A model generated the notes under the pieces. That model did no database searches and was not told where the DNA came from. It saw only the letters and a program-made list of their open reading frames with translations. Made by a program: the position numbers and the translations under genes. Below, one piece after another: positions 2,842-26,590 of a stretch of 38,465 bases of DNA. The stretch's first letter is position 1, and the number at the start of each line of letters is the position of its first letter. Source of the DNA: Coriobacteriales bacterium (lineage in GTDB: Bacteria > Actinomycetota > Coriobacteriia > Anaerosomatales > JACRBU01); NCBI GenBank assembly GCA_016213085.1, contig JACRBU010000053.1:1-38465 (forward strand), written 5' to 3'.

Positions 2842-2863
2842 CTCGGCCGAGGCCTCGCGCTAC
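2838..2863. terminator. GC-rich inverted repeat between convergent stop codons
   Basis: GTAGC at 2838-2842 and GCTAC at 2859-2863 flank the self-complementary CTCGGCCGAG (2842-2851). The repeat spans both TAG stops of the convergent genes and may act as a bidirectional hairpin. No T-run is present and part of the symmetry follows automatically from two facing TAG codons, so confidence is low. Confidence 0.25.
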
Positions 2864-4332: not shown

Positions 4333-4339
4333 GTCGCTT

Positions 4340-4346
4340 CCTCCTT
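4340..4346 (-). promoter_or_regulatory. Ribosome binding site of the second nuoM
   Basis: AAGGAGG on the minus strand overlaps the TAA stop of nuoN (4345-4347) and sits seven bases before the GTG at 4332. This supports translational coupling and the GTG start rather than the ATG at 4326. Confidence 0.7.
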
Positions 4347-5799: not shown

Positions 5800-5802
5800 G
5801 GA

Positions 5803-7269
5803 CTAGCCTCCCATCAACTTGGTCAGCAACGGCTCGATGCCTGCGTTGATCGTCTGGTACATCGTCGCCGGGAAGATACCGACGGTCATGATCGTGATCG
5901 CGAGGATGCCCATCGGCGCGAGGCGCACGGGCGAGGGGTCGACGATGCGCTCGACGGCCTGAGAGGGCTCACCGAGCAGGATCTTGCCGAGCATCCGGAT
6001 AAGGTACGCGGCGGTCACGACGACCCCGACGAACGCGATGGCCGCCAGAAGCGGCGAGCGCCCGATGATCCCGACGTACACGAGCAGCTCGGCAACGAAC
6101 CCGCTCGTCGAAGGCAGCCCCATACTTGCCGCCGAAGCGATGACGAATGCGGCCGCGACCAGGGGAGTCCGACTCATGAGGCCAGAGATGTCGGCGATCT
6201 GACGCGTGTGGGACTTCTCGTAGACGTAGCCGATGAGCGCGAAGAACAGGGCCGTCATGATCCCGTGCGCGAACATCTGGAACACCGCGCCCTGCAGGCC
6301 GAACTTGTCGATCATCGCGAAGCCGAGCAGGACGTAGCCCATGTGGCTCACGCTCGAGTAGCCGATCACGTACTTGAGGTCCGTCTGGTTCATCGCGCAG
6401 AGCGCGCCGTACACGACGTTGATCGCGCCGATGATGGCGATGAGGAGCGCCCAGTCCCGAAGCCCTTCGGGGAAGAGCGTCATGCCGAGTCGCAGGACGC
6501 CGTAGGCGCCGATCTTCAGCAGCACGCCCGCGTGCATCATGGAGACGGCGGTCGGGGCGGCGACGTGGCCGTCCGGCGACCACGTGTGCAGCGGCCAGAT
6601 CGGCACGAGCGTTCCGAAGCCTACGAACATCAGCAAGAACACCCACCGCTGGAAACCGGGCGGGAAGTTGGCGCCCGCCCAGATCCGCAGATCGAACGTA
6701 GAGGCCCCGACCTGCCAATACACGAGCGCAAGCGCGATGGTGATAAGAGCGCTGCCCGCGAACAGGAACAGCGTGAGCTTCATCGCCGCGTAGTCCTTGT
6801 GCGTGCTCCCCCAGATCGCGATCAGCAGGTACATCGGCACGACGGCCATCTCGTAGAAGAAGAAGAGCAGGAAGGCGTCGACGGAGACGAACACGCCGAA
6901 CACGCCCGTGACGAGCAGAAGCAGGAGCGCGAAGAACAGCCGGGGTCTCTCGTCGACATTCCACGACACGAGCACGCCCGTGAACATGACAAGCGCCATG
7001 AGGGCGAGCATCGGGACGGATATCCCGTCGACCCCGACGATGTAGGAGATGCCGAGCGAAGGGATCCAGCGCACCGATTCGACGAACTGCACGCCACCCG
7101 CGGCGCGGTCGTACGTCGCCCACACCCACGCCGAGCCGGCAAGGCAGATCGTTGCGGCCACCAGAGCGAGGACGCGCGGCAGCTGCGTTCCCCGGCCGAA
7201 GGCGCCGATGAGGATCGCTGCGGCAAGCGGCGTGAGCGCGACTATGGAGAGCACCGGAAGCGTGTTCAT
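5803..7269 (-). CDS. nuoM: NADH-quinone oxidoreductase subunit M
   Basis: A 488-residue antiporter-like subunit of complex I. The early glutamate is kept in LFFFYEMAVVP, the second lysine in AGVLLKIGAYG, and the late glutamate in SGFVAELL. The region corresponding to the mid-protein channel lysine reads GFGTLVPIWPLHTW: aligned on VP-x-x-PLHTW, the lysine of the other NuoM (AIKVP) is a leucine here. This may alter its proton path, and a second NuoM follows downstream. The ATG at 7269 overlaps the nuoL stop (ATGA); the open frame extends upstream to 7458 only as a shadow over nuoL. The sequence is well diverged from the nuoM at 2860-4332, so this is not a recent tandem duplication. Confidence 0.94.
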   Translation of the reverse strand: MNTLPVLSIVALTPLAAAILIGAFGRGTQLPRVLALVAATICLAGSAWVWATYDRAAGGVQFVESVRWIPSLGISYIVGVDGISVPMLALMALVMFTGVLVSWNVDERPRLFFALLLLLVTGVFGVFVSVDAFLLFFFYEMAVVPMYLLIAIWGSTHKDYAAMKLTLFLFAGSALITIALALVYWQVGASTFDLRIWAGANFPPGFQRWVFLLMFVGFGTLVPIWPLHTWSPDGHVAAPTAVSMMHAGVLLKIGAYGVLRLGMTLFPEGLRDWALLIAIIGAINVVYGALCAMNQTDLKYVIGYSSVSHMGYVLLGFAMIDKFGLQGAVFQMFAHGIMTALFFALIGYVYEKSHTRQIADISGLMSRTPLVAAAFVIASAASMGLPSTSGFVAELLVYVGIIGRSPLLAAIAFVGVVVTAAYLIRMLGKILLGEPSQAVERIVDPSPVRLAPMGILAITIMTVGIFPATMYQTINAGIEPLLTKLMGG

Positions 7270-9185
7270 CGCGCGAACACCACCACGAGCAGCACGACGG
7301 CGACCACGAAGCACATCAGGTAGGTCTGCACGTTGCCGGTGTGGATGCGGCGGACCTCGCCTGCTTCTGTGACCGAGTTGCCCAAGCTGTCCACGGCTCC
7401 GTCCACCCCTTTTCGGTCGAACACGGCGAGGACGGCGCTGATGCGCAGGCCGACCCACCCGACAGCGCGCACGACGCCGTCGACGACCGCATTGTCCGTG
7501 CGGCGGAGTCCCTCAGAGACCCATATCACCGGTCTGATGACGCCGTGGTGGTAGATCTCGTCCATCCAGAACTTCCTCGAGAGAAGCTTGGTGACCACGG
7601 GGGAGCGGAAGTAGCCGTCCGGCTCGAAGAATCCCTTGAGGTAGCTCGACCACGCGAGCGCGATCGCGGCTGTCGCGATGCCGACTGCGACACCCGCTAG
7701 GATCAGGCTCGGCTCGGCAGCCTCATGCTCGCCGAGGAAGCCGGCGAAGGCGTAACCCATGAGCGGAGACCCGACGAGTCCGACCGTCACGGCGAGGCCG
7801 GCCAGGACGACGAGGGGGGCCGTCATGACCCACGGTGACTCGTGCGCGTGGGCGCTCTTGCTCTGAGGTCCCGGCGCGACGAAGAACGCGAGAAGGGTCG
7901 CGCGCCCCATGTAGAAGGCGGTGAGCGCTGCCGTGAACAGCCCGGCGACCAAGAACGCCGTCTGTCCCGAACGCAGGGCGGAGAGCAGGATCTCGTCCTT
8001 GCTCCAGAACCCGGCAAGCGGGGGAATGCCCGCGAGCGAGAGCGCACCGAGGACCCAGGTGGCGGTCGTCCACGGCATCTTGCGCCACAGCCCGCCCATC
8101 TCGTGCAGGTCTTGCGTGTGGGTCGCGTGGATGACGCTTCCCGCGCCGAGGAAGAGCAGCGCCTTGAAGAACGCGTGGGTCATGAGATGGAACATCGCGG
8201 CGACCCAGCTACCGGTACCGAGGGCCAGGAACATGAGTCCCAGCTGCGAGATCGTCGAGTAGGCGAGCACCTTCTTGATGTCGTTCATCGCGAGCGCGAT
8301 CAGTGCGCCCATCACCGCCGTGATGGTCCCGACGGTGCCGACCACCGTGAGCGTCACCGGGCTCGCTTCGAAGAGCGGGAAGGAGCGAGCCACGAGGTAC
8401 ACGCCTGCGGCGACCATCGTCGCTGCGTGGATGAGCGCTGAGCCCGGTGTGGGACCCGCCATCGCGTCGGGCAGCCATACGTGCAGCGGGAACTGGGCGC
8501 TCTTGCCCATCGCGCCCATGAAGAGCAGCAGGGCGCACGCTATGAGCGTCGGACCGGCCCACGCGTGCGTCTCGACCGAATGGAAGACGGTCTCGAACGT
8601 GAATGAGCCGACGGTCAGGAACATGATGACGAGCGCGAGCCCGAAACCGACGTCGCCGAAGCGCGTGACCAGGAAGGCCTTCATGGCTGCGGGCGGCGCC
8701 TTGTCGTCGGCGTACCAGAAACCTATCAGCAGGTACGAGGCGAGTCCCATGACCTCCCAGCACATGTACATGAGTAGCCAGCCATTGGAGAGCACCACGC
8801 CGAGCATGGCTGCGGTGAACAGCGAGATCGCTCCGTAGTACCACCGGAAGCGGTCGTCTTCGGCCATGTATCCGAGCGAGTAGACCTGCACGAGGAGGCT
8901 GACGAAGGCTACGACCACCAGCATCGTCGCGGTCAGCGGGTCCACGAGGATCCCGAAGTCGATCGTGACGGCGCCGAACTTCAGCCACTCTGTCGAGGCT
9001 TGGAACTCCTGCCCGCTCGCGGTGAAGGACGCCAGGTAGAGCGACGCCAGGAAGACGAGCCCCACGGTGGTGATCCCGAGGGCAGGCGCAACCTGTCTCG
9101 GTAGCTTGCGGCCGGTCGCGAGAACTACCGCGAACGCGGCGAGCGGAAGAAGCGGAAGCACCCAGCTGTATGCGGCAAGTTCCAC
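7266..9185 (-). CDS. nuoL: NADH-quinone oxidoreductase subunit L
   Basis: A 639-residue protein, the largest antiporter-like subunit, normally at the tip of the membrane arm. The core reads MYMCWEVMGLASYLLIGFW with its glutamate, then GAMGKSAQFPLHVWLPDAM with the channel lysine, then AGPTPGSALIHAATMVAAG and FHLMTHAFFKALLFLGAGS. GIPPLAGFWSKDEIL marks the late helix. The C-terminal 120 or so residues should form the lateral helix that runs along the arm and its anchor helix; the total length is slightly above the usual 610-630. The start is GTG at 9185, three bases after the nuoK stop. Its stop overlaps the nuoM start. Confidence 0.96.
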   Translation of the reverse strand: MELAAYSWVLPLLPLAAFAVVLATGRKLPRQVAPALGITTVGLVFLASLYLASFTASGQEFQASTEWLKFGAVTIDFGILVDPLTATMLVVVAFVSLLVQVYSLGYMAEDDRFRWYYGAISLFTAAMLGVVLSNGWLLMYMCWEVMGLASYLLIGFWYADDKAPPAAMKAFLVTRFGDVGFGLALVIMFLTVGSFTFETVFHSVETHAWAGPTLIACALLLFMGAMGKSAQFPLHVWLPDAMAGPTPGSALIHAATMVAAGVYLVARSFPLFEASPVTLTVVGTVGTITAVMGALIALAMNDIKKVLAYSTISQLGLMFLALGTGSWVAAMFHLMTHAFFKALLFLGAGSVIHATHTQDLHEMGGLWRKMPWTTATWVLGALSLAGIPPLAGFWSKDEILLSALRSGQTAFLVAGLFTAALTAFYMGRATLLAFFVAPGPQSKSAHAHESPWVMTAPLVVLAGLAVTVGLVGSPLMGYAFAGFLGEHEAAEPSLILAGVAVGIATAAIALAWSSYLKGFFEPDGYFRSPVVTKLLSRKFWMDEIYHHGVIRPVIWVSEGLRRTDNAVVDGVVRAVGWVGLRISAVLAVFDRKGVDGAVDSLGNSVTEAGEVRRIHTGNVQTYLMCFVVAVVLLVVVFAR

Positions 9186-9188
9186 GGG

Positions 9189-9497
9189 CTACCCCTTCAT
9201 CCTGGTGATGCGGTCGATAGCCGAGATGTCGCTGGTCCGGTTGAGCGTGATGAGGAGCGCGAGAGCGAGTCCGACCTCGGCCGCCGCGACGACCATCAGG
9301 AAGATCACGAAGTTGACGCCGACCGCCTCGCGCGGGGCGACATACACGGAGAACGCCGCAAGGTTGATGTTCACGGCGTTGAGGACGAGCTCGACGCAGA
9401 TGACGACGCGCAGCGCGCTCTTGGACGTGAGTACGCCGAAGAGCCCGATGCAGAAGAGCATGGCCGCGAGGATCAGGTAGTGGTTGAGCGTGATCAC
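9189..9497 (-). CDS. nuoK: NADH-quinone oxidoreductase subunit K
   Basis: A 102-residue protein with three membrane helices, of typical NuoK length. It links the quinone site to the antiporter-like subunits. The two conserved buried glutamates are visible in VICVELVLNAVNINL and VVAAAEVGLALAL. The start is the GTG at 9497, which overlaps the TGA of nuoJ (GTGA). The reading frame is open for a further 128 codons upstream, but those codons lie over nuoJ and do not resemble a protein. Confidence 0.95.
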   Translation of the reverse strand: MITLNHYLILAAMLFCIGLFGVLTSKSALRVVICVELVLNAVNINLAAFSVYVAPREAVGVNFVIFLMVVAAAEVGLALALLITLNRTSDISAIDRITRMKG

Positions 9498-10156
9498 TCG
9501 GCACCCCCCGCTTCGGCGGGGACGGAGCCCGGCGACGGTGCGGCGTCTGGCGCGAGCCCCTCGGCGGCCTCTTCCTTCACGTAGGTGGCGGCCGCGGCGG
9601 CGGCCTCGCCGAGCGTCATCGTGCCGGGGACTCGAGCGCCTTCGGGGAGGTCTGAGGGGGTGTCGAGCACATCGTCTTCGCGCGCGAGCACGATGGCGCC
9701 GATGAGCGCGATCGTGAGAACGAGCCCTGCGATCTCGAAGGGCAGCACATAGCGCGAGAAGAGGATCGACGCCAACGACGCTGCGTCGTGCGACTGGCCG
9801 GCGGCTACTCGGAAGTCGGCACGTCCCAACGTTATGGCGAGCACGCCGAAGAACAGCGCGCACACCCCCCCAGCCGTCCACATGGTTCCCTTGCGCGTGC
9901 GGTCGGCGCCCTCAGGGGCCGGGCGCGTCAGTATCAGCACGAAGAGGACCAAAACCGTGATGGCACCTCCGTACACGAACAGTTGCATCGCGGCGAGGAA
10001 CTCGCTGCCGAGGAGCAGATAGAGCGCCGCGATCGCGAAAAGCGTCGCGAACAGCGACATCACGGCGTGTATGAGCCGCGAAGCGAGAACAAGCCCAAGC
10101 GCGCCCGCCACGGCGACGAGCGCGTAGGTGTAGAACATGACGACGTCGCTGCTCAT
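9494..10156 (-). CDS. nuoJ: NADH-quinone oxidoreductase subunit J
   Basis: A 220-residue membrane subunit with five predicted helices. The region QLFVYGGAITVLVLFVLIL matches the conserved third helix, whose pi-bulge and tyrosine take part in coupling. Beyond the last helix, about 55 residues form an alanine-, proline- and glutamate-rich hydrophilic tail that is longer than in most NuoJ proteins and probably extends into solution. The ATG overlaps the nuoI stop (ATGA), and its stop overlaps the nuoK start. Confidence 0.94.
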   Translation of the reverse strand: MSSDVVMFYTYALVAVAGALGLVLASRLIHAVMSLFATLFAIAALYLLLGSEFLAAMQLFVYGGAITVLVLFVLILTRPAPEGADRTRKGTMWTAGGVCALFFGVLAITLGRADFRVAAGQSHDAASLASILFSRYVLPFEIAGLVLTIALIGAIVLAREDDVLDTPSDLPEGARVPGTMTLGEAAAAAATYVKEEAAEGLAPDAAPSPGSVPAEAGGAE

Positions 10157-10587
10157 GCGGGCGACCCCCCTTCGGCCGGTACTCCCGCGGAGGCGCGCTC
10201 ACGCTCGTAGAGCGCCAGGTAGGTCTCGTCCCGGTTCGGGGTGGCGGTCTCGAAGTCGCCGGTGTGCGCGAGCGCGGCTGAGGTGCAGTTCTCGACACAG
10301 ATCCCGCAGTACATGCAGAGTCCGAGGTCGATCACGAAGCGATTGAGTACCCGCCCCGGTCCGTCCTCTCGCTTCTCGGATTCGATCGTTATCGCGCCGA
10401 CCGGGCAGCTCTTCGCGCAGAGCATGCAGCTCTTGCACAGCGGGACGCCGCTTTCGTTGACGGGCATCGTAAACGACATCCGGCTGCGCTCCGGCAGCTC
10501 GCGCTTCCCCCATGGGTAGCTGTCCGTGACGGAGGGACGCAGCACGTGGCGCAACGTCGTGACCATGCCTTTCGCCATGCCGATCAT
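10153..10587 (-). CDS. nuoI: NADH-quinone oxidoreductase subunit I, 2x[4Fe-4S] ferredoxin-type
   Basis: A 144-residue iron-sulfur subunit that passes electrons along the peripheral arm towards NuoB. Two full [4Fe-4S] motifs are present: C51, C54, C57 with C61, and C91, C94, C97 with C101. The N-terminus contains the amphipathic stretch that packs on NuoH. It is slightly shorter than many NuoI proteins. The ATG at 10587 overlaps the nuoH stop, and its stop overlaps the nuoJ start. Confidence 0.95.
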   Translation of the reverse strand: MIGMAKGMVTTLRHVLRPSVTDSYPWGKRELPERSRMSFTMPVNESGVPLCKSCMLCAKSCPVGAITIESEKREDGPGRVLNRFVIDLGLCMYCGICVENCTSAALAHTGDFETATPNRDETYLALYERERASAGVPAEGGSPA

Positions 10588-11711
10588 GCCGTCGCCCCCT
10601 CGGTCTCGGTCGACGCCACCGTCGCTTCGGCAGCGCGGGTGCGGGGGGGAGCATGCCGTTCAACCGCGGCCTCGCGAACCCGGTCGCCCGCGTGCTTGCC
10701 GAGGCGGCTCACGAGCCACACGAGCGCGGCAGCCGCCGCGAATTCGAGGACGGAGAGCACCACCAGGTTCGTGACGATCCCGACGGCCGTGATGAGCACG
10801 TTGAGAAGGGCGGCGGGGAGCAGGAGCTTCCAGCCGATCTCCATGAGCTGGTCGACGCGGACGCGCGGGAAGGTGGCGCGGACCCAGATGATCACGAACA
10901 CGAGCAGGTATGTCTTGAGGAACAGCCACACGATGCCCGGCAGCAGCGGCCCGCTCCATCCGCCGAGGAAGAGCAACACCGTGAGCAGCGACCACGTGAA
11001 GACGTTCATGTACTCGGCGACGAAGAAGAGCGCGAAACGCATCGATGAGTACTCGGTGTTGAAGCCCGCTACCAGCTCGGACTCTGCTTCCGGCATGTCG
11101 AACGGCGTGCGGTTCAACTCTGCGAGCATGCCTACGAAGAACAGGATGAATGCGAACGGCTGCGTGATGACGTTCCACACGCCGGCCTGGGCCTCGACGA
11201 TCTGCTGAAGCCCCATCGAGCCTGCCAGCATGACGACGCCGAGGACGGCGAGGATCATCGGGACTTCGTAACTGATCTGCTGGGCCGCCGCGCGGAAGCC
11301 TCCGATGAGCGAGTACTTGTTGTGCGACGACCAGCCGGCCACGAGGATCCCGACGGGGAAGAGCGCTGCGATCGCGAAGACCATGAAGATGCCGACGTCG
11401 AAGCTCGCGCCCGTGAACGCGGCCACCCATGGCGTCGCCGCGTACACGAGGATCGACGGCGTGAAGGCGATGATCGGCGCGATCAGGTAGAGGATCCGGT
11501 CGGCTCCCGCGGGAACGAGATCTTCCTTGCCGAGCAGCTTCAGCGCATCAGCGAAAGGCTGCAGCGCACCGTGAAAGCCGGTTCGCATCGGCCCCTGGCG
11601 CGACTGCATGTGGCCCATCCACTTCCGTTCGCACCACATGACCACGATCGTGTTGACCAGCACCACCATCACGAGGGCGAGCATTCCGATGAGGGTCTTG
11701 AGCAGCGTCAT
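10584..11711 (-). CDS. nuoH: NADH-quinone oxidoreductase subunit H
   Basis: A 375-residue membrane subunit that forms the quinone entry chamber. Recognisable stretches are MWCERKWMGHMQSRQGPMR near the N-terminus, the central loop region LNRTPFDMPEAESELVAG with its cluster of acidic residues, and FNTEYSSMRFALFF. The C-terminus adds about 40 hydrophilic residues beyond the usual end. The ATG overlaps the nuoCD stop and the TGA overlaps nuoI. Confidence 0.96.
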   Translation of the reverse strand: MTLLKTLIGMLALVMVVLVNTIVVMWCERKWMGHMQSRQGPMRTGFHGALQPFADALKLLGKEDLVPAGADRILYLIAPIIAFTPSILVYAATPWVAAFTGASFDVGIFMVFAIAALFPVGILVAGWSSHNKYSLIGGFRAAAQQISYEVPMILAVLGVVMLAGSMGLQQIVEAQAGVWNVITQPFAFILFFVGMLAELNRTPFDMPEAESELVAGFNTEYSSMRFALFFVAEYMNVFTWSLLTVLLFLGGWSGPLLPGIVWLFLKTYLLVFVIIWVRATFPRVRVDQLMEIGWKLLLPAALLNVLITAVGIVTNLVVLSVLEFAAAAALVWLVSRLGKHAGDRVREAAVERHAPPRTRAAEATVASTETEGATA

Positions 11712-13456
11712 CGGTCGATCTCCCCCATCACGACGTCGACGGAGCCGAGTACGGCGACCACGTCACCGATTCGGCCGCCGTTGAGCAGGGTCGGGGCCGA
11801 ATGGAGGTTGGAGAAGGCGGGGGAGCGGACCTTGAGCCGCCACGGCTGGGCGCTCCCGTCGCTCACAAGGTAGACGCCGAGCTCGCCGCGGGGGCTCTCG
11901 ACGCGCCGATATGCTGCGCCGGGAGGCGGCTTGATCGCTCGCGGCACGTCCGGGTTGACGCATGGTCCTTCCGGCATTCCCTCAAGCGCGGCCAGCGCGA
12001 TGCGTGCCGACTCCCGCATCTCCGCGACGCGGACGGTGTAGCGGTCGAACGTGTCGCCCACCATTGCTGTCGCTACGTTCACCGGTATGCGGTCGTAGGC
12101 GGCGTACGGCTCGTCGCGCCGCAGGTCGATGTCGATTCCCGAGGCGCGGGCCATCGGCCCGGTCACGCAGTGGTCGATGACCGCCTGGGGCGAGAGCAGG
12201 CCGACCCCACGCGTCCGCGCTCGGAAGATCTCGTTGCCGGTGAGCAGCGACTCGCACTCGTCGACCTGCTTGTCGAACGTCTTCAGGTACGCCTTCATCT
12301 CTTCGGCGAGCCCTGCGGGCATGTCAGCTTTGACGCCGCCGGGCCGGAAGTAGTTGAACATCATCCTTGCGCCGGTGATGGCCTCGAAGAAGTCGAGGAT
12401 CTTCTCGCGGTCGATGAACGCGTAGAGGAAGGGCGTCAGGGCACCGGTGTCGAGACCGGCGGCCGCGAACCACGTGTGGTGGCTCGTGATACGCACGAGT
12501 TCGCCCAACATGACGCGCAGGTAGTCCGCCTTCGGCGTGGACTCGATGCCCATGAGCTCCTCGAGCGCAAGGATGTGCGCCAGCTCGGTGTGGAAGCCGG
12601 AGACGTAATCGCTCCGGTCCAGCAGGGCCGTGCACGCTTTGTAGTTGAGAGACTCGCAGAGCTTCTCGATGCATCGGTGCAGGTAGCCGTGGGTCGGCTC
12701 CGAGGCCATGACCTGCTCGCCGTCGAGGGCGAGCCAGAGGTGCAGCACGCCGTGCATGCTGGGATGCTGTGGCCCCATGTTCAGCACGAGACGCTCGGAG
12801 TGCAGTACCGGGTCCCCCGCGAGACGTGCTTCCTCGGAGGGCGAGTTCGGCCGCCGGGTCTCCTCGAACGGGGCATCACCCGGTGACTTCACGGCCTCGA
12901 CGACAGCTTCGGAAGAAACCCCGCCGTTCGTGTCGAAGGCCTTGCGCAGCGGGTGACCCACGAAGTCGTCGCGAAGGACGATCCGCCTCAGGTTCGGGTG
13001 TCCGTCGAAGTGCACGCCGAACAGGTCGTAGACCTCGCGCTCGAGTTGCTCGGCTCCCGCCCAGATGTGGCTGAGTGTGGGCACCGCCAGCGAGCCGTCC
13101 TCGAGAGCGACCCTGACGATGATCGTGGTACCGTCAGCGGCGCGGGTGAGGCCGTAGATCATGTCGAGTCCGGTCTGGGGAAGCTGTTCGCGAGCACCCG
13201 CCGGGGAGGCTGGCGGGGCCGCTTCGGTTTGCTCGCCATCGGCGGGTTTGGGCGGCTGAAGCTCCTCGGCCGTCAGCAGCGTGAGGTGCGTGAATCCGCG
13301 CTGGTCCCTCAGGGTGCGGATCACGTCGATGAGGTCTTCGGGCGACGTCCGTGCGCAGGGGATCTCGCCCGGACCGAGGATGCAGCGGTCGGCGACGCCT
13401 GCGAGCTGCTCGAAGACGGGTGCTATGCGCTCTGCTGCGGCTTCTACCGTCCTCAC
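11708..13456 (-). CDS. nuoCD: Fused NADH-quinone oxidoreductase subunits C and D
   Basis: A 582-residue fusion of the 30-kDa and 49-kDa peripheral-arm subunits. The NuoC part (to about 180) includes the signature [20 protein letters not shown], and residues about 67-95 are a proline/alanine-rich insertion. A linker of about 40 residues leads to the NuoD part, which starts near [17 protein letters not shown]. The quinone-site histidine in that stretch and the tyrosine in DRSDYVSG are both retained, so quinone chemistry is expected. The hydrogenase-type nickel cysteines are absent. The start is the GTG at 13456, overlapping the nuoB TGA; codons further upstream in this frame are a shadow of nuoB. 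Confidence 0.95.
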
Positions 13457-13950
13457 GCCGGTTGCTCCAGTACCAGTCTGTCGGCGGCCGACCGTTCGCC
13501 TTTGCTGTTGCGCTCCATGAGAAGCAGGAGCGAGTTGATGAGTGCTTCGGGTCGAGGCGGGCATCCAGGTACGTAGATGTCGACGGGGACGATCTGGTCG
13601 ACTCCGTTGACGACGTTGTAGCCGGTCGAGAAGGGGCCGCCGCCGATCGCGCACGATCCCATGGCGATGACGTACTTGGGCTCGGCCATCTGCTCGTAGA
13701 GCAGCTTGAGGCGCGGCGCCATCTTGAGGTTGATGGTGCCGGCGACGATCATGCAGTCCGCCTGCCTCGGCGAGTTCCGGAAGAAGATGCCGAAGCGGTC
13801 GGTGTCATAGCGGGCGGACCCGCAGCACATCATCTCGATGGCGCAGCATGCGGTACCGAACGTGAGCGGCCACATCGAGTGGCCGCGAGCCCAGTCCATG
13901 AGCTGCTGAATGGGCGCGATAAGAACGCGCGTCTGGTCGTCTACACCCAC
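13453..13950 (-). CDS. nuoB: NADH-quinone oxidoreductase subunit B (N2 cluster)
   Basis: A 165-residue subunit carrying the last iron-sulfur cluster before quinone. The ligand set is complete: adjacent C35 and C36 in [11 protein letters not shown]100 in [11 protein letters not shown] and C130 in [11 protein letters not shown]. An additional CC pair follows at 42-43. The start is the GTG at 13950, giving a 10-base overlap with the end of nuoA; earlier codons in this frame lie over nuoA and are not protein-like. The position after nuoA is canonical. Confidence 0.95.
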
Positions 13951-14478: not shown

Positions 14479-17211
14479 CTAGTTCGACGGCGTTTTCACC
14501 TTGGTGATGCGCACGGCCGTGACCTTCAGACCCGGGATCTTCGAGGTGGGGTCGACCGCGCTGCTCGTCACGCGGTTGGCCGGAGCGTCCGCGAAGTGGA
14601 AGGGCATGAAGACGACGCCTCGCTTCGGAGCGTTCTCGCGGCCCACGTGCGCATGCGCGGTCACCGTGCCGTGCTTGCTCGTCATCTCCACGAGATCACC
14701 GTCACAGATGCCAAGCGGTTCTGCGTCGGCTCGGCTCATCTCGATGTAGGGATGGTCCGAGAGCTCGGCGAGGCCCGGCGAGTTGTCCGTCATGGTATTG
14801 GTGTGGAAGTTCCACAGCTGTCGGCCGGTCGTGAGGATGAGTGGGCGCTCTGTATCGACCTGCTCGGGCGACGGCACGTAGTCGACCGCGGCGAAGGCGC
14901 CCTTGCCGCGGGTGAACCGCTCGGCGTGCAGGATCGGTGTTCCCGGGTGGTCGGCGTCTGGACACGGCCATTGCAGACCACCGGTGGCTTCGAGCCGCTC
15001 GTACGTGACACCGCCGTACTGCGGGGTGACCTCGGCCATCTCCCGCATCACCTCGGCGGGGGTCTCGTAGTCCATCTCGAGCCCGATCGCACGCGATAGG
15101 CGCAGGATGATCTCGCCGTCCGCCAGCGCTTCGCCTGGAGCATCGACCGCCTTGCGGACACGCTGGATCCGGCGCTCGGTGTTGGTGAAGGTGCCCTCCT
15201 TCTCGAGGAAGGTCGCGGCGGGGAGGATGACGTCTGCGAAGGCGGCCGTCTCGGTCATGAAGATGTCCTGCACGACGACGAAGTCGAGCGCCTCGAGCGC
15301 CTCGAGGACGTGCGTCTGGTTCGGGTCGGCTACCGCAGGGTTCTCTCCCATGATGTAGAGGGCCTTCAGCTCGCCGGCGACGGCTGCGTCCATCATCTCG
15401 ACCAGCGTGAGGCCGGACTCGGCGGGAAGCTCGTGGTCGGTCTCCCAATAGTCGCAGAAGCGGTCGAGGGTGCCGCGCTCGGTGAGCGGCTGGTAGCCGG
15501 GCAGGCAGTTCGGCAGGCACGCCAGGTCGCAGGCGCCCTGGACGTTGTTCTGGCCGCGAAGCGGGTTCACGCCTGTGCCGGGACGGCCGATGTTGCCGGT
15601 GAGCATCGCGAGATTCGCGATCGCGCGCACCTGTTCGGTTCCCGAGGTGTGCTGGGTGATGCCCATCGAGTAGACGATGGAGGCCTTCCCAGCCGATCCG
15701 TACGCCAGCGCTACCTGGCGGATCTCCTCGGCCGTCACGCCGCAGATCTCGGCCGCGGCGTCCACGTCGTAGTCCTCTATGAGGCGGCGCAGCGCGTCGA
15801 AGCCCTCGGTGCGCTCGGCGATGAATGCGTGGTCGGCGAGCCCTTCGGCGAGGATGATGCTCATCATCGCGTTGAGGAACGCGGTGTTCGTGCCGGGCTT
15901 GATAGCGACCCAGCGCTCAGCGTGGTCCGCGAGACGGACGCGCCTGGGGTCGACCATGATGATCCGCGTGCCGTTCTTGGCGGCCCTCTTGAGTTCGATG
16001 CCGATGATGGGGTGCGCCTCGGCGGTGTTCGAGCCGATGACGAGGGCCACATCGGCCTCGCCGAGGTCGGCGATGGAGTTCGTCATCGCACCGGACCCGA
16101 ATGCGGCGGCCAGACCGGCCACCGTGGAGCTGTGTCAAAGTCGGGCGCAGTGATCGATGTTGTGTGTGCCGATGCCCGCACGCAGCACCTTCTGGAAGAG
16201 GTAGTTCTCCTCGTTGGTGCATTTCGCTGACGCGAGTCCGCCGATGGACTCGGGACCGTGCTCGTCGCGAATGGCGGTGAGGCGCTCGGCGATCTCGGCG
16301 ATCGCTTCGTCCCAGGTGACCTCGACGAGCTCGCCATCACGACGGACCAGTGGTGTGGTCAGACGGTCCGGGCTGTGCGTGTAGCCCCAGCCGTAGCGCC
16401 CCTTGGCGCAGAGGTTGCCGCCGTTGACGCCGCGCTCGAGCGGCGCGGTGACGTCTATGACCTTGCCGTTCTTGGTCGAGACGTCGAGCGTGCACCCCAC
16501 TCCGCAGTATCCGCAGGTGGTCTCGGTGTGCTCGACCTCCCAGATGCGGCCTTTGAACTTCCCGAGCTTGTTGCTGAGTGCTCCCGTCGGGCATGTGGAG
16601 ACGCACTGCCCGCAGAACTCGCAGTAGGCGTCGTGGAGCGGGACGCCGTACGGCGTGTTCGGCAGGGAATCGAAACCTCGGTCGGTGAAGCCGTAGACGT
16701 AGCGGCCTTCGACCTCCGCGCAGATCCGCACGCAGCGGCCGCACATGATGCACTTGGTGAGATCGCGCGCGATGAGGGGGTTCTCGCTCTCGATGAACTC
16801 AACGTGAAGCTCGCCGGAGAACCTCGGCATCTCGACGGCGTGCTCGTATGCCGTGTCCTGCAGACCGCACTGTCCGCTGGACTGGCAGGTGAGGCAGTCG
16901 ACCTTGTGGTCGGAGAGCAGGAGTTCGATGACGGAGCGCCTCAGCTCGAAGAGAGCCTCGCTCTCGGTGGTCACGACCATGCCGTCGGCGACCGTGGTGG
17001 TGCAGGAGGTCGGATAGCCGCGAAGGCCTTCGATCTCGACGATGCACAAGCGGCAACCGCCGTACGGCTTCAGGCGCGGGTCGTAGCAGAGCGTAGGGAT
17101 GTGGATCGAGTTCTCTCGGCAGACCTCGAGCACGGTCTGGCCCGTGCGGGCGGCGATGCGCCGTCCGTCGATGGTGACCGTGAGGGTGGTCGTGTCGAAG
17201 GTCGTGGTCAC
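14479..17211 (-). CDS. fdhA: Selenocysteine formate dehydrogenase, alpha subunit with NuoG-like N-terminus
   Basis: A 910-residue molybdenum/tungsten bis-pterin enzyme interconverting formate and CO2, the first step of the methyl branch. The coding frame contains a TGA at 16135-16137 (codon 359) in the context CARL-U-HSSTVAGL, where formate dehydrogenases carry the metal-binding selenocysteine followed by the catalytic histidine. A SECIS hairpin follows immediately. N-terminal domains are a [2Fe-2S] ferredoxin (C42, C53, C56, C70), a NuoG-type His/Cys cluster (H102, C106, C109, C115) and two [4Fe-4S] motifs (C154-C164, C197-C207). The catalytic domain's own [4Fe-4S] motif is C233, C236, C240, C268. 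The start is a GTG overlapping the stop of the CBS gene (GTGA). Automatic callers would split it into 16135-17211 and 14479-16122. Its partners are the NuoF-like and NuoE-like proteins just upstream, which suggests NAD(P)H- or ferredoxin-linked electron transfer. Confidence 0.93.
16104..16124 (-). promoter_or_regulatory. SECIS element for selenocysteine insertion in fdhA
   Basis: Starting 11 bases after the TGA, the mRNA reads CGGUGGCC-GGUCU-GGCCGCCG: an 8-bp stem (one G-U pair) closed by a GGUCU loop. From memory, the loop and spacing closely match the SECIS of Escherichia coli fdhF. SelB binds such a hairpin to direct selenocysteine at the preceding UGA. The selenocysteine machinery genes themselves are not in the window. 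Confidence 0.88.
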
Positions 17212-20894: not shown

Positions 20895-21677
20895 TTACCG
20901 TGCGCGTACCGTGCGGTCGGAGATCGCCTCCGCCACCGTGCGCAGCGCGTCGGTGAATGCGGGGTCGGTGCCGTAGGGGGAGCGTCCGTCGCGATCCGCA
21001 CGGCGGACTTCGTCGCTCGGCGGGATCGTGCCGAGCAGCGGGATATCGCCGAGCTTCTCGCGTACGAACGCGATGTCGGCGGCGTCCTCGGTCTTGTTGG
21101 CGACGGCGACGACATCGTGAACGCCGATGTCGTGCGCGAGATCGCTCACGTGATGCGCGGTCTGGATCGAGCGCATGCTCGGCTCGACCACGACGATGAA
21201 GAGGTCGACGCTCTCGGCGGTCCCTCGGCCGAGGTGTTCGATGCCAGCCTCCATGTCGAGGATCACGGCGTCGTCGCCATCGACCATCAGATGCCGAAGG
21301 AACGCCTTGAGGAAGGTGCCTTCGGCGCACATGCAGCCTGAGCCGCCGCGGTCGACGGTGCCCATCTTGAGCAGCGTGACCCCGTCGATATCGGTCCCGC
21401 AGAGATCGACCACGTCGTCGACCTCAGGGTTGAGGCGGAACATGCCGCCGCGGCCCGGGCGGGCGCCCGTGCGCTCCTCGATGAGGTCGTCCTGCATCGA
21501 AAGGGGCGTGCACGCGTCGTCTAGCTCCGGCGTCGCGCCGAGAGCGGTCGCGAGGTTGGCGTCCGGGTCCGCGTCGATCGCGATGACACGGCGGCCCTGC
21601 TCGGCCCAAAGCCGAGCGAGGCCGGACGACAGCGTCGTCTTGCCTACGCCCCCCTTGCCCGAGATGGCGAGCTTCAC
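20895..21677 (-). CDS. cooC: CODH/ACS nickel-insertion ATPase, CooC type (intact copy)
   Basis: A 260-residue MinD/ParA-family ATPase that matures the nickel centres of CODH or acetyl-CoA synthase. The deviant Walker A motif GKGGVGKTT is at 8-16, the DADPDANL segment follows at about 35-42, and the dimer-forming nickel-binding C-x-C (C115, C117, in GGSGCMCAEG) is present. ILDMEAGIEHLGRGT supplies the Walker B region. The start is GTG at 21677, overlapping the metF stop (GTGA); codons upstream in this frame lie over metF. It is probably the functional copy, because the paralogue at 32640-33416 has an in-frame stop. Confidence 0.93.
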   Translation of the reverse strand: MKLAISGKGGVGKTTLSSGLARLWAEQGRRVIAIDADPDANLATALGATPELDDACTPLSMQDDLIEERTGARPGRGGMFRLNPEVDDVVDLCGTDIDGVTLLKMGTVDRGGSGCMCAEGTFLKAFLRHLMVDGDDAVILDMEAGIEHLGRGTAESVDLFIVVVEPSMRSIQTAHHVSDLAHDIGVHDVVAVANKTEDAADIAFVREKLGDIPLLGTIPPSDEVRRADRDGRSPYGTDPAFTDALRTVAEAISDRTVRAR

Positions 21678-22558
21678 GCGCTCACCTCCTGGGCGAGGCC
21701 GGCGGCCTCGAGGACCTCGGGAACGAGATGCTCGGCGCCGACCGCCATGATGTGCACGCCGTCGCACACATCGCGGACATCGTTGATGAAGCGCGCGGCG
21801 ATCTCGATGCCGGTGCGCGTGGGGTCTTCGGAGGCCTCGAGTTCGGCGATGAGCGCGTCTGGCACGGTGATGCCGGGGATGTTGCGGTTCATGAACGAGG
21901 CCATGCGGGCCGAACGCAGGACAACGATGCCGGCCAGGACTTTGACGTCGAAGTGCCGCGCGAGTTCCATGAAGGACTTGAAAGACTCGGGATCGTAGAC
22001 CGCCTGCGTCTGGAAGTAACGCGCTCCGGCCTCGATCTTCTTCTCGAACTTGGCGAGCTGCGGCTTGACGGGCACCGCATCGGGCGTGACAACGGCGCCG
22101 ACGTAGAGCTCCGGCGTGCCGTGAAGCTCCTTGCCCGCGAAGTCGGTCCCCTTCGTGAGGGTCTCTATGACCTCGAGCAGCTGCACGGACTCCAGGTCGA
22201 AGACCGCCTTCGCCTCGGGGTGGTCGCCGACGACGACGTGGTCGCCGGTCAGCGCGAGCACGTTGGCGATGCCGAATGACGCGGCGCCGAGTATGTCGGA
22301 CTGGATGGCGAGGCGGTTCCTGTCGCGGCACGTGACCTGGTACACGGGCTCGTGACCCGCGTTGACCAGGTGGACGCACGCGGCGAGTGTGCAAAGCCGC
22401 ATGACCGCGGCCTGGTTGTCGGTGACGTTGAGCGCGTCGACGCGCCCGCGCAGCAGCTCCGCGGTCTCGAGCATCTCGGCGACGTCGGTGCCCTTCGGCG
22501 GGCCGACCTCGGAGGTCACGACGAAGCGGCCGCTCTCGAATGCGTCACGAAGGCTCAT
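21674..22558 (-). CDS. metF: 5,10-methylenetetrahydrofolate reductase
   Basis: A 294-residue TIM-barrel flavoprotein that reduces methylene-tetrahydrofolate to methyl-tetrahydrofolate. Typical features are FVVTSEVGPPKG near the start, DALNVTDNQAA, NVLALTGDH and ARYFQTQAVYD. The length matches the short acetogen-type MetF, which lacks a regulatory domain. The ATG at 22558 overlaps the metV stop (ATGA). With metV and the GltD-MvhD fusion directly upstream it should form a multi-subunit reductase, but the electron donor cannot be read from sequence. Confidence 0.95.
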   Translation of the reverse strand: MSLRDAFESGRFVVTSEVGPPKGTDVAEMLETAELLRGRVDALNVTDNQAAVMRLCTLAACVHLVNAGHEPVYQVTCRDRNRLAIQSDILGAASFGIANVLALTGDHVVVGDHPEAKAVFDLESVQLLEVIETLTKGTDFAGKELHGTPELYVGAVVTPDAVPVKPQLAKFEKKIEAGARYFQTQAVYDPESFKSFMELARHFDVKVLAGIVVLRSARMASFMNRNIPGITVPDALIAELEASEDPTRTGIEIAARFINDVRDVCDGVHIMAVGAEHLVPEVLEAAGLAQEVSA

Positions 22559-23211
22559 CGCGCACCTCCTTCGCCGGACAGGTCGAGCTTGTTGTAGGTC
22601 GTCTTCACCGAGTTGTCCTTTGGCTGGATGATCTCCTTGAAGTCCTCGGGGCGCTCGAGCGTTTCGAGCCGGTCGTAGATCTCGACCCACGCGCACGGGC
22701 GGTCGCCGAGCTCGCACTGACCATTGTTCACGCCACCGCACGGGCCGTTGAGGATGCCCTTGGCACAGCGAGTGACCGGGCAGATGCCTGCGGTCTGGCC
22801 GAGCACGCACTTCCCGCACGCGGAGCACTCGGCGCGCCACGAGGCGAAGCCTTGCGAGGCGCCGATGAAGAGCGTATCGAGCGCGGGATACACGGGCTTG
22901 TCGGCGCTCTCCGAAAGGAGCGCAACGCCGGCACCACAGCCGAGCGAGAGGATGGCGTCGTAGACCCGGTCATCTAGGTGCTCGATGAATTCGGGCTCGC
23001 ACTGGCGCTGCAGAACGCACCCCGAGAATTCGGTGGTCTCGCCCTTGCGGCGCATCGTGAGCTTCAGCAACTCGATGAGCGTGTCGACTTCCTTCTCGCC
23101 ACCGGCCAGAGCGACCGCGGCGCAGGTGTTGCAGCCGACGAGCAGCACGTTGCGGTGGCGCGCGACCATCGAGCAGATCTCTTCGACGGGCTTCTGGCGG
23201 ACGACGATCAT
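22555..23211 (-). CDS. metV: Methylenetetrahydrofolate reductase zinc/Fe-S partner MetV
   Basis: A 218-residue cysteine-rich protein, the known partner of acetogen-type MetF. The C-terminal MTHFR_C-type region reads CSACGKCVLGQTAGICPVTR, followed by CAKGILNGPCGG and CELGDRPCAW. These cysteines are candidates for iron-sulfur or zinc ligands. The N-terminal half has LLVGCNTCAAVALAGG. It overlaps both neighbours by four bases. In other acetogens MetV links MetF to an electron-transfer module; here the only such neighbour is the fusion protein immediately upstream. Confidence 0.92.
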   Translation of the reverse strand: MIVVRQKPVEEICSMVARHRNVLLVGCNTCAAVALAGGEKEVDTLIELLKLTMRRKGETTEFSGCVLQRQCEPEFIEHLDDRVYDAILSLGCGAGVALLSESADKPVYPALDTLFIGASQGFASWRAECSACGKCVLGQTAGICPVTRCAKGILNGPCGGVNNGQCELGDRPCAWVEIYDRLETLERPEDFKEIIQPKDNSVKTTYNKLDLSGEGGAR

Positions 23212-25235
23212 GAGGCAGCACCGCCCTCGGCGACGCCTTCGCCCTGCGCGGCGACTTCAGCGGGCTCTTCACCGCTGACGTCGAAGGCGTCTTCCATGCC
23301 GATCTCGGTGTGGAGCGACTTGATGCGCGCCACGCGGGCGGCGACAAGCGGCATCGCGTTCGGGAAGCGGCACATGTTCTCGTTGCATCCGGAGAACACC
23401 ACTCGATGCGCGCCGGATTGCAGGGCGTCGAGAACCGCGGCTTCGCTCACACGCAGCAGACACGGAACGGAGATGATGCGGGCCTTCTCGCCGATAACGT
23501 CGAGCAGGTCGGGCGTGTAGCCGCAGACGAACGCAAGCGTGGTGTCGAGTTCCGGGTTGAAGAGGCAGCGGTCGACGCGTCGTTGCAGCTCGGCGTCGTT
23601 GCAGCCCTCGAGCTGGATCGCGTGAGCGGGGCACTGCGATGCGCACGCACCGCATGCGTGGCAGAGGTCGGCGTCGAAGTAGAGATAGCCGCCCACCTCC
23701 CCCGAAGGCGCGCCGTGGGGGCACACGCGCATGCAGGTCAGGCACGCGGCGCACTTCTCGCGCGTCAGGCGGGCGCCGGTCGTGCACGACAGACAGCGCT
23801 GCGCCTCGCGGGCAGCCTCGTACTCGGTGTAGCCGAGTTCGACCTCGTCGAAGTTCTTGACGGCGTCGTAGAATTCGACGCGCTCCATCTCGACACGTCG
23901 TCGGGTCTCGAGCTTCTGACCCATCGCGTCGGGAACCTTGCTGAGCACGGCGTGCTCTTCGTCGAGCTCGTCGATGATGTCTGAAACGCCGGTCAGGTCG
24001 CGGTAGATGAGCGCTGCGGCTCGCTTGCCCGCCGCGATCGCGTCGATGACCTTGGTGGGGCCGCTGACGACATCGCCCGCGGCGTAGCAGCGGTCGGAGC
24101 CAGCCGTCAGCGACAGCGGATCGACGTCGATCGCGCCACGCTGGGTGAGCGGCAGGCCGAGGTCGGCGACGTCGGCACCCTGGCCGATAGCGAAGATCAC
24201 CGTGCCGCCGTAGAACTCCTGTACGTTGTCCTCGTTGAAGGTGGGGGAGAAGCGCTTGTCCACGTCGAACACCGACGTGCACCGAGTGACGCGAAGCCCC
24301 ATGACCTTGTCTTCGCCGAGGACCTCGCGAGGCCCCCACGAGCAGTGGATGCGGACTCCCTCGAGTTCGGCCTCTGCGATCTCCTCGTCGGAAGCGGGCA
24401 TCTCCTGCGCGCTCTCGAGGCAGATGAGGTCGACGCGCTTCGCGCCCTGTCGGCGCGCCGTGCGGGCGACATCCATCGCGACGTTGCCGCCGCCGATGAC
24501 GATCACCGACTCCGCTAGCTCGACGTCCTCACCGCACGCGCTGTCGGCGAGGAAGGGAAGGGCCGTCAGCACGCCGGGCAGGTCCGATCCCGGGATCGGC
24601 AGCGGACGGCTCGCCTGCAGGCCGGCGGTCACCAGAACGGCGTCGAACCGCTCGCGCAGCTCGTCCATCGCGATGTCCGTGCCGACCTTGACGCCCGTCT
24701 CGACCTCGATGCCGTACTCGAGGATGTGATCGATGTCGCGGTCGAGCGCCTCGTCGGGCAGACGATAGTTCGGGATGCCGTAGCGCAGCATGCCGCCGAG
24801 CTTCGGCTTGGATTCGAAGATCGTCACCCCGAGGCCCAGTTCGGCCAGGTCGTGCGCTGCGGAGAGCCCTGCAGGGCCGCCGCCGACGATGGCGACGCTC
24901 TCGGGACGGCGGCGCGGCCGAAGCACTGCCGGATACGCGCCGTGGTCCGCGGCGGCCCGCTTGAGCGAGGCGATGGCGACCGGCTGGTCGAGCTGACAGC
25001 GACGGCATCCCTCTTCGCACGGGCGCAGGCACACGCGCCCGCATACGGAAGGCAGCGGATTGCGCTCCAAGACCGTCTCGAGAGCGTCGGTGAACCTGCC
25101 CTCGCCGATGGCCGTGATGTAGCCAGGCACGTTGATGTGTACGGGGCAGGCGGCACGGCACGGCGCGAAGAGCTTGCCGGTCGAGCTGCCCACTTCCTCT
25201 TGTACGCGGGGCGTGTTCATGGCGGATCCGATCAA
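23208..25235 (-). CDS. GltD-like FAD/NAD(P) oxidoreductase fused to 2x[4Fe-4S] and MvhD domains
   Basis: A 675-residue multi-domain redox protein. Residues about 20-100 form the cysteine-rich Fer4_20 domain of glutamate synthase small subunits (CRAACPVHINVPGYI, then several Cys). A Rossmann FAD site follows (VAIVGGGPAGLSAAHDL) and then a dinucleotide site (VIVIGGGNVAMDVARTARR), ending with YAAGDVVSGPTKVIDAIAAG. After these come CAACLTCMRVCP and CHACGACASQCP, two [4Fe-4S] motifs. The last part resembles MvhD/FlpD, with VPCLLRV and GCNENMCRFPNA; only one cysteine of the usual first pair is visible. TTG at 25235 is chosen because GGAG lies six bases before it; ATG at 25220 is the alternative. 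It probably feeds electrons to MetV/MetF, replacing the separate HdrABC-MvhD subunits of Moorella-type clusters (inference). Confidence 0.85.
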   Translation of the reverse strand: MIGSAMNTPRVQEEVGSSTGKLFAPCRAACPVHINVPGYITAIGEGRFTDALETVLERNPLPSVCGRVCLRPCEEGCRRCQLDQPVAIASLKRAAADHGAYPAVLRPRRRPESVAIVGGGPAGLSAAHDLAELGLGVTIFESKPKLGGMLRYGIPNYRLPDEALDRDIDHILEYGIEVETGVKVGTDIAMDELRERFDAVLVTAGLQASRPLPIPGSDLPGVLTALPFLADSACGEDVELAESVIVIGGGNVAMDVARTARRQGAKRVDLICLESAQEMPASDEEIAEAELEGVRIHCSWGPREVLGEDKVMGLRVTRCTSVFDVDKRFSPTFNEDNVQEFYGGTVIFAIGQGADVADLGLPLTQRGAIDVDPLSLTAGSDRCYAAGDVVSGPTKVIDAIAAGKRAAALIYRDLTGVSDIIDELDEEHAVLSKVPDAMGQKLETRRRVEMERVEFYDAVKNFDEVELGYTEYEAAREAQRCLSCTTGARLTREKCAACLTCMRVCPHGAPSGEVGGYLYFDADLCHACGACASQCPAHAIQLEGCNDAELQRRVDRCLFNPELDTTLAFVCGYTPDLLDVIGEKARIISVPCLLRVSEAAVLDALQSGAHRVVFSGCNENMCRFPNAMPLVAARVARIKSLHTEIGMEDAFDVSGEEPAEVAAQGEGVAEGGAAS

Positions 25236-25246: not shown

Positions 25247-26590
25247 CTAGCTCGCGCGCTTCTTGACGAAGGCGCCGAGGTCAGCCGCTTCGTACGGTCC
25301 GACGACGACGTTCCAGCCGTCGAGTTCCTCCTTGAGTTCGCCGGAGATCTGCGCGACCGCGCCGGGGATGATGACGTCGCGGTGGGAGACCTTCTCGGCG
25401 ATGCCGGAGTCGTTCACGAACTTCGCGATGCGCTCGGGTACGAACTTGCCGGCTGCCCATGCGGTCAGCACCGAGAGCCCCTCGGACTCGACGATGCCGA
25501 GGTACATCGGCACCTTGGCCGTTTCGATCTCTGAGGAGACGATGAAGTACGTGAGCGAGAAGTTCGTCGTGACGACGAAGGGGGCGTCCGGCCCAGGCGT
25601 GCCGATCTCGTAGATCTTGGCTTCGGCCTGCATCGGGCGCTGGGGGTCGGTGTAGATGTTCTGGCGGGCGACGAGCAGCGGGAGCATCTGCCACGCCTCG
25701 GCGCTCGACAGAACGATGATGGAGCCGTACTTGAGCAGGTCGGCCGTGGCGTAGACCGTCTCGAGCATCTGGTCACCGCCGGAGATCTCGGCTGGGAAGG
25801 TGATCACGGGGTAGCCCAGGGGTGCGAACTTCTGGTTGAGCGCCGCGCGGCGCGCGAAGACGTGGTCGCGAAGCGCCTCGCCCGCGGTCGTCGGGGCGCT
25901 GTCGATCACGAGGTCGGTCAGCCCCGCGTCCGCCGCCTTCTCGGTGAGCGCCGAAAGGGCCTCGAGGCCCTTGGCGCGGATCGCCAGCGGAACACTGTGC
26001 TTCTTGGCGAGCTCGATCATGGCGTCCGCGTTCGACTCCGTGGCAGCGTGCAGCAGCGGCTTGCTGCTCGCAATGGCCCCGAGCGCTGCTTCCGCGTGAG
26101 CCGGGTCCTCGGTGACGAGGACGACGGGCACGTCCGCGGCGGCGACCTTGCTGGCGACCTCGGCGAAGCGAGCGGCATCGCCGGTCGAGCGTACGGCGAG
26201 GAAGCCGCAGCGCAGGCGCTGCTGGACGCGCTCGAAGTCGGCGGCCTTGCACGCGGCGATGGCGGCGTCGATCTCGCCGTCGGACGCGCCCGAGTCGATC
26301 GACGCGCCGAAGGCCGCCGGGTTCACGAACGTCTTGTCGTGGCGGAAGAGCACCGTCTCCTCGCCGACCGTGAACGCCGAATCGCCGACGCCGACGGTCA
26401 CCGCGCGCATGGGCGGCGCGGCGGCCGAGGCGAGCTGCGCCTTGGCTTCGTCGGAGACGTAGGGGCACAGCGTGAGCTCGGCTTGCCCCTGCGCGAGCTT
26501 CATGGCGAAGGCGAGGCACGTCGGGGTGCCGCATTCGCCGCAGTTCGTCTTCGGCAGGAGCTTGAAGATGTCGAGTCCAGTGAGAGCCAT
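25247..26590 (-). CDS. acsC: Corrinoid/iron-sulfur protein large (gamma) subunit
   Basis: A 447-residue protein that holds the corrinoid carrying the methyl group between AcsE and AcsB. The N-terminal [4Fe-4S] domain has C17, C20, C25 and C42 in the arrangement of characterised AcsC proteins. A TIM barrel follows, and the C-terminal B12-binding part includes VTTNFSLTYFIV and the PMYLGIVESEG region. The ATG at 26590 has an AGAGGA-like ribosome site; the open frame upstream overlaps acsB and is not protein-like. It lies 37 bases after acsB. AcsD, its partner, is encoded upstream of acsA rather than next to it. Confidence 0.95.
   Translation of the reverse strand: MALTGLDIFKLLPKTNCGECGTPTCLAFAMKLAQGQAELTLCPYVSDEAKAQLASAAAPPMRAVTVGVGDSAFTVGEETVLFRHDKTFVNPAAFGASIDSGASDGEIDAAIAACKAADFERVQQRLRCGFLAVRSTGDAARFAEVASKVAAADVPVVLVTEDPAHAEAALGAIASSKPLLHAATESNADAMIELAKKHSVPLAIRAKGLEALSALTEKAADAGLTDLVIDSAPTTAGEALRDHVFARRAALNQKFAPLGYPVITFPAEISGGDQMLETVYATADLLKYGSIIVLSSAEAWQMLPLLVARQNIYTDPQRPMQAEAKIYEIGTPGPDAPFVVTTNFSLTYFIVSSEIETAKVPMYLGIVESEGLSVLTAWAAGKFVPERIAKFVNDSGIAEKVSHRDVIIPGAVAQISGELKEELDGWNVVVGPYEAADLGAFVKKRAS

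Follow-up and report, generated by a model that had tools for sequence, protein, structure and literature searches.

Reductases built on MetV and MetF have been sorted into classes 1S, 2S, 3S, 6S and X (PMC8515935) and into types I–IV (PMC8760232), and neither scheme includes the arrangement described below. In the type IV complex of Moorella thermoacetica a GltD domain interrupts the TrxR-like domain of HdrA (PMC9430772), and this HdrA is reported to oxidise NADH (PMC8760232); the same donor has been proposed for archaeal HdrA proteins that contain GltD (PMC12054007). Pulldowns in S. ovata showed binding of MvhD to MetF and HdrA, and of MetV to the same two proteins (PMC9430772). An X-type, NuoEFG-linked MetVF is predicted in deltaproteobacteria and Chloroflexi (PMC8515935). 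Outside these reductases, the GltD homologue NfnB bifurcates at its FAD, with an Arg hydrogen-bonded to FAD N5 and a Glu ligand on the FAD-proximal cluster, whereas the FAD of StnC is non-bifurcating, has a Lys ligand on the cluster beside it, and keeps the Arg (R239) without contact to N5 (PMC10482914).

The window analysed here is a 38,465-nucleotide stretch of a Coriobacteriales bacterium (GCA_016213085.1, contig JACRBU010000053.1). It contains a Wood-Ljungdahl operon with the order fhs, acsV, folD, acsD, CODH, acsB, acsC, GFM, metV, metF and cooC, followed by NuoE/NuoF-like genes, a selenocysteine formate dehydrogenase and complex I genes. The genes at and around the fused gene, here termed GFM, are:

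25247..26590, minus strand: acsC, corrinoid protein gamma subunit, directly upstream of GFM (PF03599, 1.8e-85; NF003195 above its cut-off)
23208..25235, minus strand: GFM, a fused GltD core, ferredoxin with two [4Fe-4S] motifs and MvhD/FlpD part, 675 aa (open reading frame with Pfam and NCBIfam matches; AF2 model)
22555..23211, minus strand: metV, DUF5981/MTHFR_C (PF12225, 2.3e-33), its start overlapping the GFM stop
21674..22558, minus strand: metF, MTHFR (PF02219, 4.8e-36), its start overlapping the metV stop
20895..21677, minus strand: cooC/acsF-like P-loop maturation ATPase directly downstream of metF (PF01656, 3.6e-18), kept in relatives

GFM is a single 675-codon frame read on the minus strand from 25235 down to 23208, starting at a TTG codon with GGAG upstream, and an alternative ATG lies 15 nt inside. 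The two overlaps noted in the first-pass annotation of this DNA, between the GFM stop and the metV start and between the metV stop and the metF start, are both of the ATGA type. An ordinary glutamate synthase small subunit is ruled out by the MvhD fusion and the acsC and metV neighbours, and no GltB large-subunit partner adjoins GFM at this locus. A pseudogene or a fusion artefact of one assembly is ruled out by recurrence of the fusion in 72 sequences. A 'gltD' is drawn in actinobacterial CODH/ACS clusters by Merino et al., who name it in a figure legend (PMC7325909), and GFM very probably belongs to one family with this gene, the genomes being related; the portions of that article's text consulted, and the other literature searched, gave no interpretation of it, either as an MvhD fusion or in a role with MetVF.

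The formate dehydrogenase of the operon (14479-17211, minus strand) has a TGA at 16135-16137 as its sole frame break, located within HCARL-U-HSS, a canonical selenocysteine site. Directly downstream of it and of the NuoE/F-like genes is a complex I-type set (2860-13654, minus strand) with a NuoCD fusion, H, I, J, K, L and three more antiporter-like subunits. An Rfam search of the window gave no match. Elsewhere in the same genome there is a second metV-metF pair (L185 8598-11694, contig C176) followed by a dihydrolipoamide dehydrogenase-like gene, an order resembling the two-subunit arrangement of C. ljungdahlii. Contig C116 (L073 8171-10957) encodes a 928-aa GltD-like protein within a second complex I-type operon (NuoB, D, H and L nearby); this protein may feed electrons into complex I as a GltD module, and the same family is present in sister genomes (L072).

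Within GFM the following parts are recognised, from the N-terminus onwards:

24942..25166, minus strand: Fer4_20 N-terminal part, residues 24-98 (Pfam, 1e-21), with ligands C26, C30, C69, C73, C77 and K92
24027..24899, minus strand: two-Rossmann core for FAD and NAD(P), residues 113-403 (Pyr_redox_2, 4.5e-29)
24414..24422, minus strand: NAD(P)-specificity motif Cys-Leu-Glu, residues 272-274 (alignment), predicting NADH
23784..23795, minus strand: RCLSC cysteines 481 and 484 (two-piece profile alignment to 4ylf_B and 5jca_L)
23601..23777, minus strand: two [4Fe-4S] ferredoxin motifs, residues 487-545, with the Fer4 pair at about 490-541 (Pfam, NCBIfam and profile), like the C-terminus of HdrA
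23289..23555, minus strand: MvhD/FlpD-like domain, residues 561-649, with Pfam FlpD at 583-649 (PF02662, 9.7e-14)

The NCBIfam model PRK12771, a GltD-like NAD(P)-binding subfamily, spans residues 22-542 below its cut-off, and the HdrA2 model covers only residues 487-649. A profile search matches the MvhD/FlpD-like domain to MvhD (5odc_D) at 2.9e-20, and its four family cysteines (C571, C592, C617 and C622) form a predicted [2Fe-2S] site. Throughout 72 fused homologues the GltD and ferredoxin parts keep every one of their 15 Fe-S cysteines, the eight of the ferredoxin included, and the conservation of Fe-S cysteines across this set excludes a chance origin of the fusion. The FlpD cysteines 571, 592, 617 and 622 are found in 72, 65, 70 and 63 of the 72, and the [2Fe-2S] site may thus be altered in some lineages (C622 is absent in nine and C592 in seven). 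The single chain with Fer4_20, FAD and NAD(P) sites, two [4Fe-4S] motifs and an MvhD-like C-terminus that the first-pass annotation described is borne out by the Pfam matches and the invariant cysteines. The fourth MvhD cysteine is lost in one lineage (L042, L043, L044, L049 and L079; e.g. SEDDGH in its place), in which the metV linkage is kept. In L077 and L047 (G234, contig C63) an in-frame TAA lies between the ferredoxin and FlpD parts, reflecting either a split gene or an assembly error.

The AlphaFold (AF2) model of GFM (pLDDT 83.9, pTM 0.82) has its best PDB fold matches in subunit A of NfnABC (NfnA) and in StnC, ahead of NfnB. In a comparison using a profile of 24 relatives, NfnB-type structures match in two pieces; the RCLxC segment lies on the C-terminal side of the GltD core in GFM, as in StnC, but is N-terminal in NfnB. 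By the DPD/NfnB ligand pattern, C481, C484, C26 and C77 would presumably make one cluster, and the FAD-proximal one would be held by C30, C69, C73 and residue 92. Of the 72 fused homologues, 71 have Lys at this last position, which aligns with StnC K170 (8oh5_C), whereas the NfnB-type structures 4ylf_B and 5jca_L have Glu there. R158, invariant among the 72, corresponds to StnC R239 and NfnB R201. StnC and NfnA of the Stn (NfnABC) transhydrogenase thus share with GFM the permuted GltD core, the Lys-ligated FAD-proximal cluster (predicted in GFM) and the best fold match; they differ in having a NuoG/FdhF-like C-terminal part rather than Fer4-FlpD, an NADPH motif (YRR) and the bifurcating StnAB as partner.

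Positions 272-274 take only two states in the GFM family, Cys-Leu-Glu (CLE) or YRR, and the window protein has CLE. Rossmann sites for NAD(H) typically carry an acidic residue at that position, and in alignments YRR is the state in the NADP(H)-binding structures of NfnB, StnC and NfnA. The CLE motif therefore leads to a prediction of NADH, which we regard as the likely donor, narrowing the use of NAD(P)H suggested earlier for this protein. About a quarter of the metV-linked copies carry YRR, and these should be NADPH-linked. A Bacillota GltD-HdrA with a 1487-aa open frame carries CLE and resembles the published M. thermoacetica HdrA in architecture and approximate length (PMC9430772). In six relatives forming one actinobacterial family (L046, L050, L051, L054, L059 and L062) GFM has CLE, while its Wood-Ljungdahl operon also encodes a formate dehydrogenase with a GltD insertion, which has the NADPH-like YRR.

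The GFM locus and the type IV ('6S') HdrABC-MvhD-MetVF system of M. thermoacetica have in common the adjacent MetVF core, MvhD, a GltD domain (within HdrA in Moorella) as likely NADH site, and the C-terminal ferredoxin part of HdrA, but GFM joins GltD, ferredoxin and MvhD in one 675-aa chain. The TrxR-like flavin core of HdrA, with its bifurcation E/K residues, is absent from GFM, in which Pfam and NCBIfam recognise the GltD Pyr_redox_2 domain as the only one, and no HdrB or HdrC is present among the window genes scanned, the CCG domains of this genome being on other contigs (C111 and C42). The earlier contrast with separate HdrABC and MvhD in Moorella was overstated in that M. thermoacetica HdrA already has a GltD domain (PMC9430772). 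Many Desulfobacterota and Chloroflexota operons encode a GltD-HdrA fusion (about 1370-1610 aa) followed by separate MvhD, metV and metF, which is the Moorella design. Since Moorella HdrA itself carries a GltD domain, GFM appears to be a condensed form of the Moorella-type reductase, and a putative new variant of the MetVF type. The type III ('3S') RnfC2-MetVF of A. woodii similarly has one extra NADH-oxidising Fe-S flavoprotein and is predicted, as here, to be non-bifurcating, but uses an RnfC-type FMN protein in place of GltD-ferredoxin-MvhD; no RnfC domain is found in GFM or the neighbouring genes scanned. The X-type also joins MetVF to an alternative NAD(P)H module, but one of NuoEFG homologues; upstream of metVF in the window there is no NuoEFG, the NuoE/NuoF-like genes lying downstream between cooC and the formate dehydrogenase.

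Among 397 genomes of the phylum, 35 carry the fusion, counting copies truncated at the end of a contig, and in all 31 with enough sequence metV adjoins the fused gene and the order acsC-GFM-metV-metF is kept. A scan of public genomes, its query built from metV-linked copies and hence biased to linkage, finds the fused gene upstream of metV in Coriobacteriia, other Actinomycetota, Dehalococcoidia, Anaerolineae, Planctomycetota, Nitrospirota, Thermodesulfobacteriota/delta-type lineages, Armatimonadota-like, Bacillota and other genomes, so that the same domain order does recur beside metVF in Chloroflexota and four further phyla (Planctomycetota, Nitrospirota, Thermodesulfobacteriota and Bacillota), a search that the first-pass annotation had proposed. 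Over 45 loci the median gap between GFM and metV is 1 bp, 20 overlap, and ATGA overlaps recur in distant phyla. In a Candidatus Brocadia (anammox) genome (L098 4618-7627) the fused gene is 250 bp upstream of metV, with metF 1.7 kb further. No clear copy of the full fusion was found in plasmid and viral collections.

Less biased samples queried with the window protein (301 Chloroflexota, 300 Bacillota and 297 Thermodesulfobacteriota genomes) yielded 4, 13 and 8 fusion carriers, of which 3, 4 and 5 are metV-linked (12 of 25). The strict metV linkage suggested by the first samples is therefore overturned. Homologues lying mostly away from metVF would have refuted the first-pass proposal, and this is only partly the case: they make up 13 of the 25 in these three other phyla, yet 12 of these 13 genomes encode MetV elsewhere. 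The MetVF proteins of fused-type loci are scattered over several clades of a quick-method tree with long branches (12 label changes, at least four of them forced by starred branches), and a single MetVF partner lineage is unsupported. As far as quick trees with long branches go, they show that the fused form apparently arose or disappeared repeatedly, or was transferred among lineages.

Our preferred reading, with a probability of roughly 0.6, is that GFM is the NADH-oxidising electron-input subunit of a predicted three-component, non-bifurcating methylenetetrahydrofolate reductase, GFM-MetV-MetF. An electron-input role for MetVF, as proposed in the first-pass annotation, is very likely because of the conserved and often overlapping synteny with metV across phyla. 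NADH would give a hydride to the FAD of the GltD core, from which electrons would leave singly through the N-terminal [4Fe-4S] pair, the FAD-proximal cluster probably being lysine-ligated as in StnC, and would then pass through the two C-terminal [4Fe-4S] clusters to the MvhD-type [2Fe-2S] cluster, in an order that we infer from that of the domains. The MvhD domain would dock on MetV in a putative complex, the Fe-S clusters of MetV would reduce the MetF flavin, and this would reduce methylene-THF to methyl-THF for CODH/ACS. GFM-MetVF would thus retain the GltD input, MvhD and the ferredoxin that ends HdrA. Without HdrBC and the bifurcating flavin core of HdrA, it is expected to act simply as an NADH:methylene-THF oxidoreductase, comparable in function to the RnfC2 type of A. 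woodii but assembled from other components.

The unlinked copies bear on how general this module may be. Those of Bacillota lie near dnaG/PPDK or regulators, and one fused GltD-ferredoxin-FlpD gene (L307 6877-10704, the same locus as L099) is directly beside an aldehyde:ferredoxin oxidoreductase, for which its product is a possible NADH module. Since 9 of the 13 Bacillota copies, this one among them, are unlinked, such a domain order is not specific to MetVF. Six Bacillota genomes have metVF in a CODH/ACS cluster that lacks an adjoining electron module (L326-L329, L332 and L333) and an unlinked fused copy elsewhere (L304, L305, L308, L311, L312 and L249), and in a quick tree these copies group in a clade adjacent to the linked ones of this phylum. 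GFM could conceivably be a general, exchangeable NADH-input module for MetVF, working from a distant locus in some acetogens, with the unlinked Bacillota copies as the long-missing NADH donor for 'two-subunit' MetVF, but we consider this doubtful.

It is unlikely that GFM is a general NADH:ferredoxin-type oxidoreductase merely sharing the operon, with MetVF taking electrons from ferredoxin like the purified two-subunit enzymes. Type II MetVF does use reduced ferredoxin in vitro (PMC8515935), and the unlinked copies in Bacillota and elsewhere, with the one beside the aldehyde oxidoreductase, would fit; however, metV overlaps of the ATGA type occur repeatedly in phyla far apart, HdrA-type operons place this same MvhD part beside metV, and MetV is encoded in 28 of the 29 genomes that have the fused protein.

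Bifurcation had been raised as a possibility in the first-pass annotation. The GltD FAD would split NADH electrons, with the MvhD path leading to methylene-THF and the N-terminal clusters to ferredoxin, much as the homologue NfnB bifurcates at this FAD (PMC10482914); R158 is invariant, two separate Fe-S branches leave the FAD region, and NADH (-320 mV) to methylene-THF (-200 mV) leaves spare energy (values cited in PMC13391211). Yet the R158 equivalent in StnC makes no N5 contact, the closest folds are StnC and NfnA rather than NfnB, and the absence of the HdrA flavin core and HdrBC, together with a FAD-proximal Lys as in non-bifurcating StnC instead of the NfnB Glu (PMC10482914), makes bifurcation improbable and its absence, on present sequence evidence, probable. 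Very unlikely is a complex running in reverse in vivo, oxidising methyl-THF with electrons passed to NAD+ (acetate or methyl-group oxidation), for although the operon also has complex I-type and formate dehydrogenase genes and the host is an uncultured Coriobacteriia relative that may run its metabolism in either direction, methyl-THF to NAD+ is about +23 kJ/mol (PMC13391211) and a non-bifurcating NAD+ route is unfavourable.

The electron donor of methylene-THF reduction, and with it the energy balance of this step, is debated in acetogen bioenergetics; on H2+CO2, reduced ferredoxin gives a negative ATP yield and NADH a positive one (PMC8760232). Production of the single-chain, three-gene GFM-MetVF system is much less demanding than that of the Moorella-type complex, which has six subunits and resisted intact purification, and the questions of donor and bifurcation are therefore directly testable. 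GFM combines in one chain three electron-carrying parts that are distributed over several proteins in Moorella, and in many phyla it adjoins the enzyme making the methyl group for acetyl-CoA carbon fixation, covering many uncultured carbon fixers and an anammox genome, Candidatus Brocadia, with the same gene by metV.
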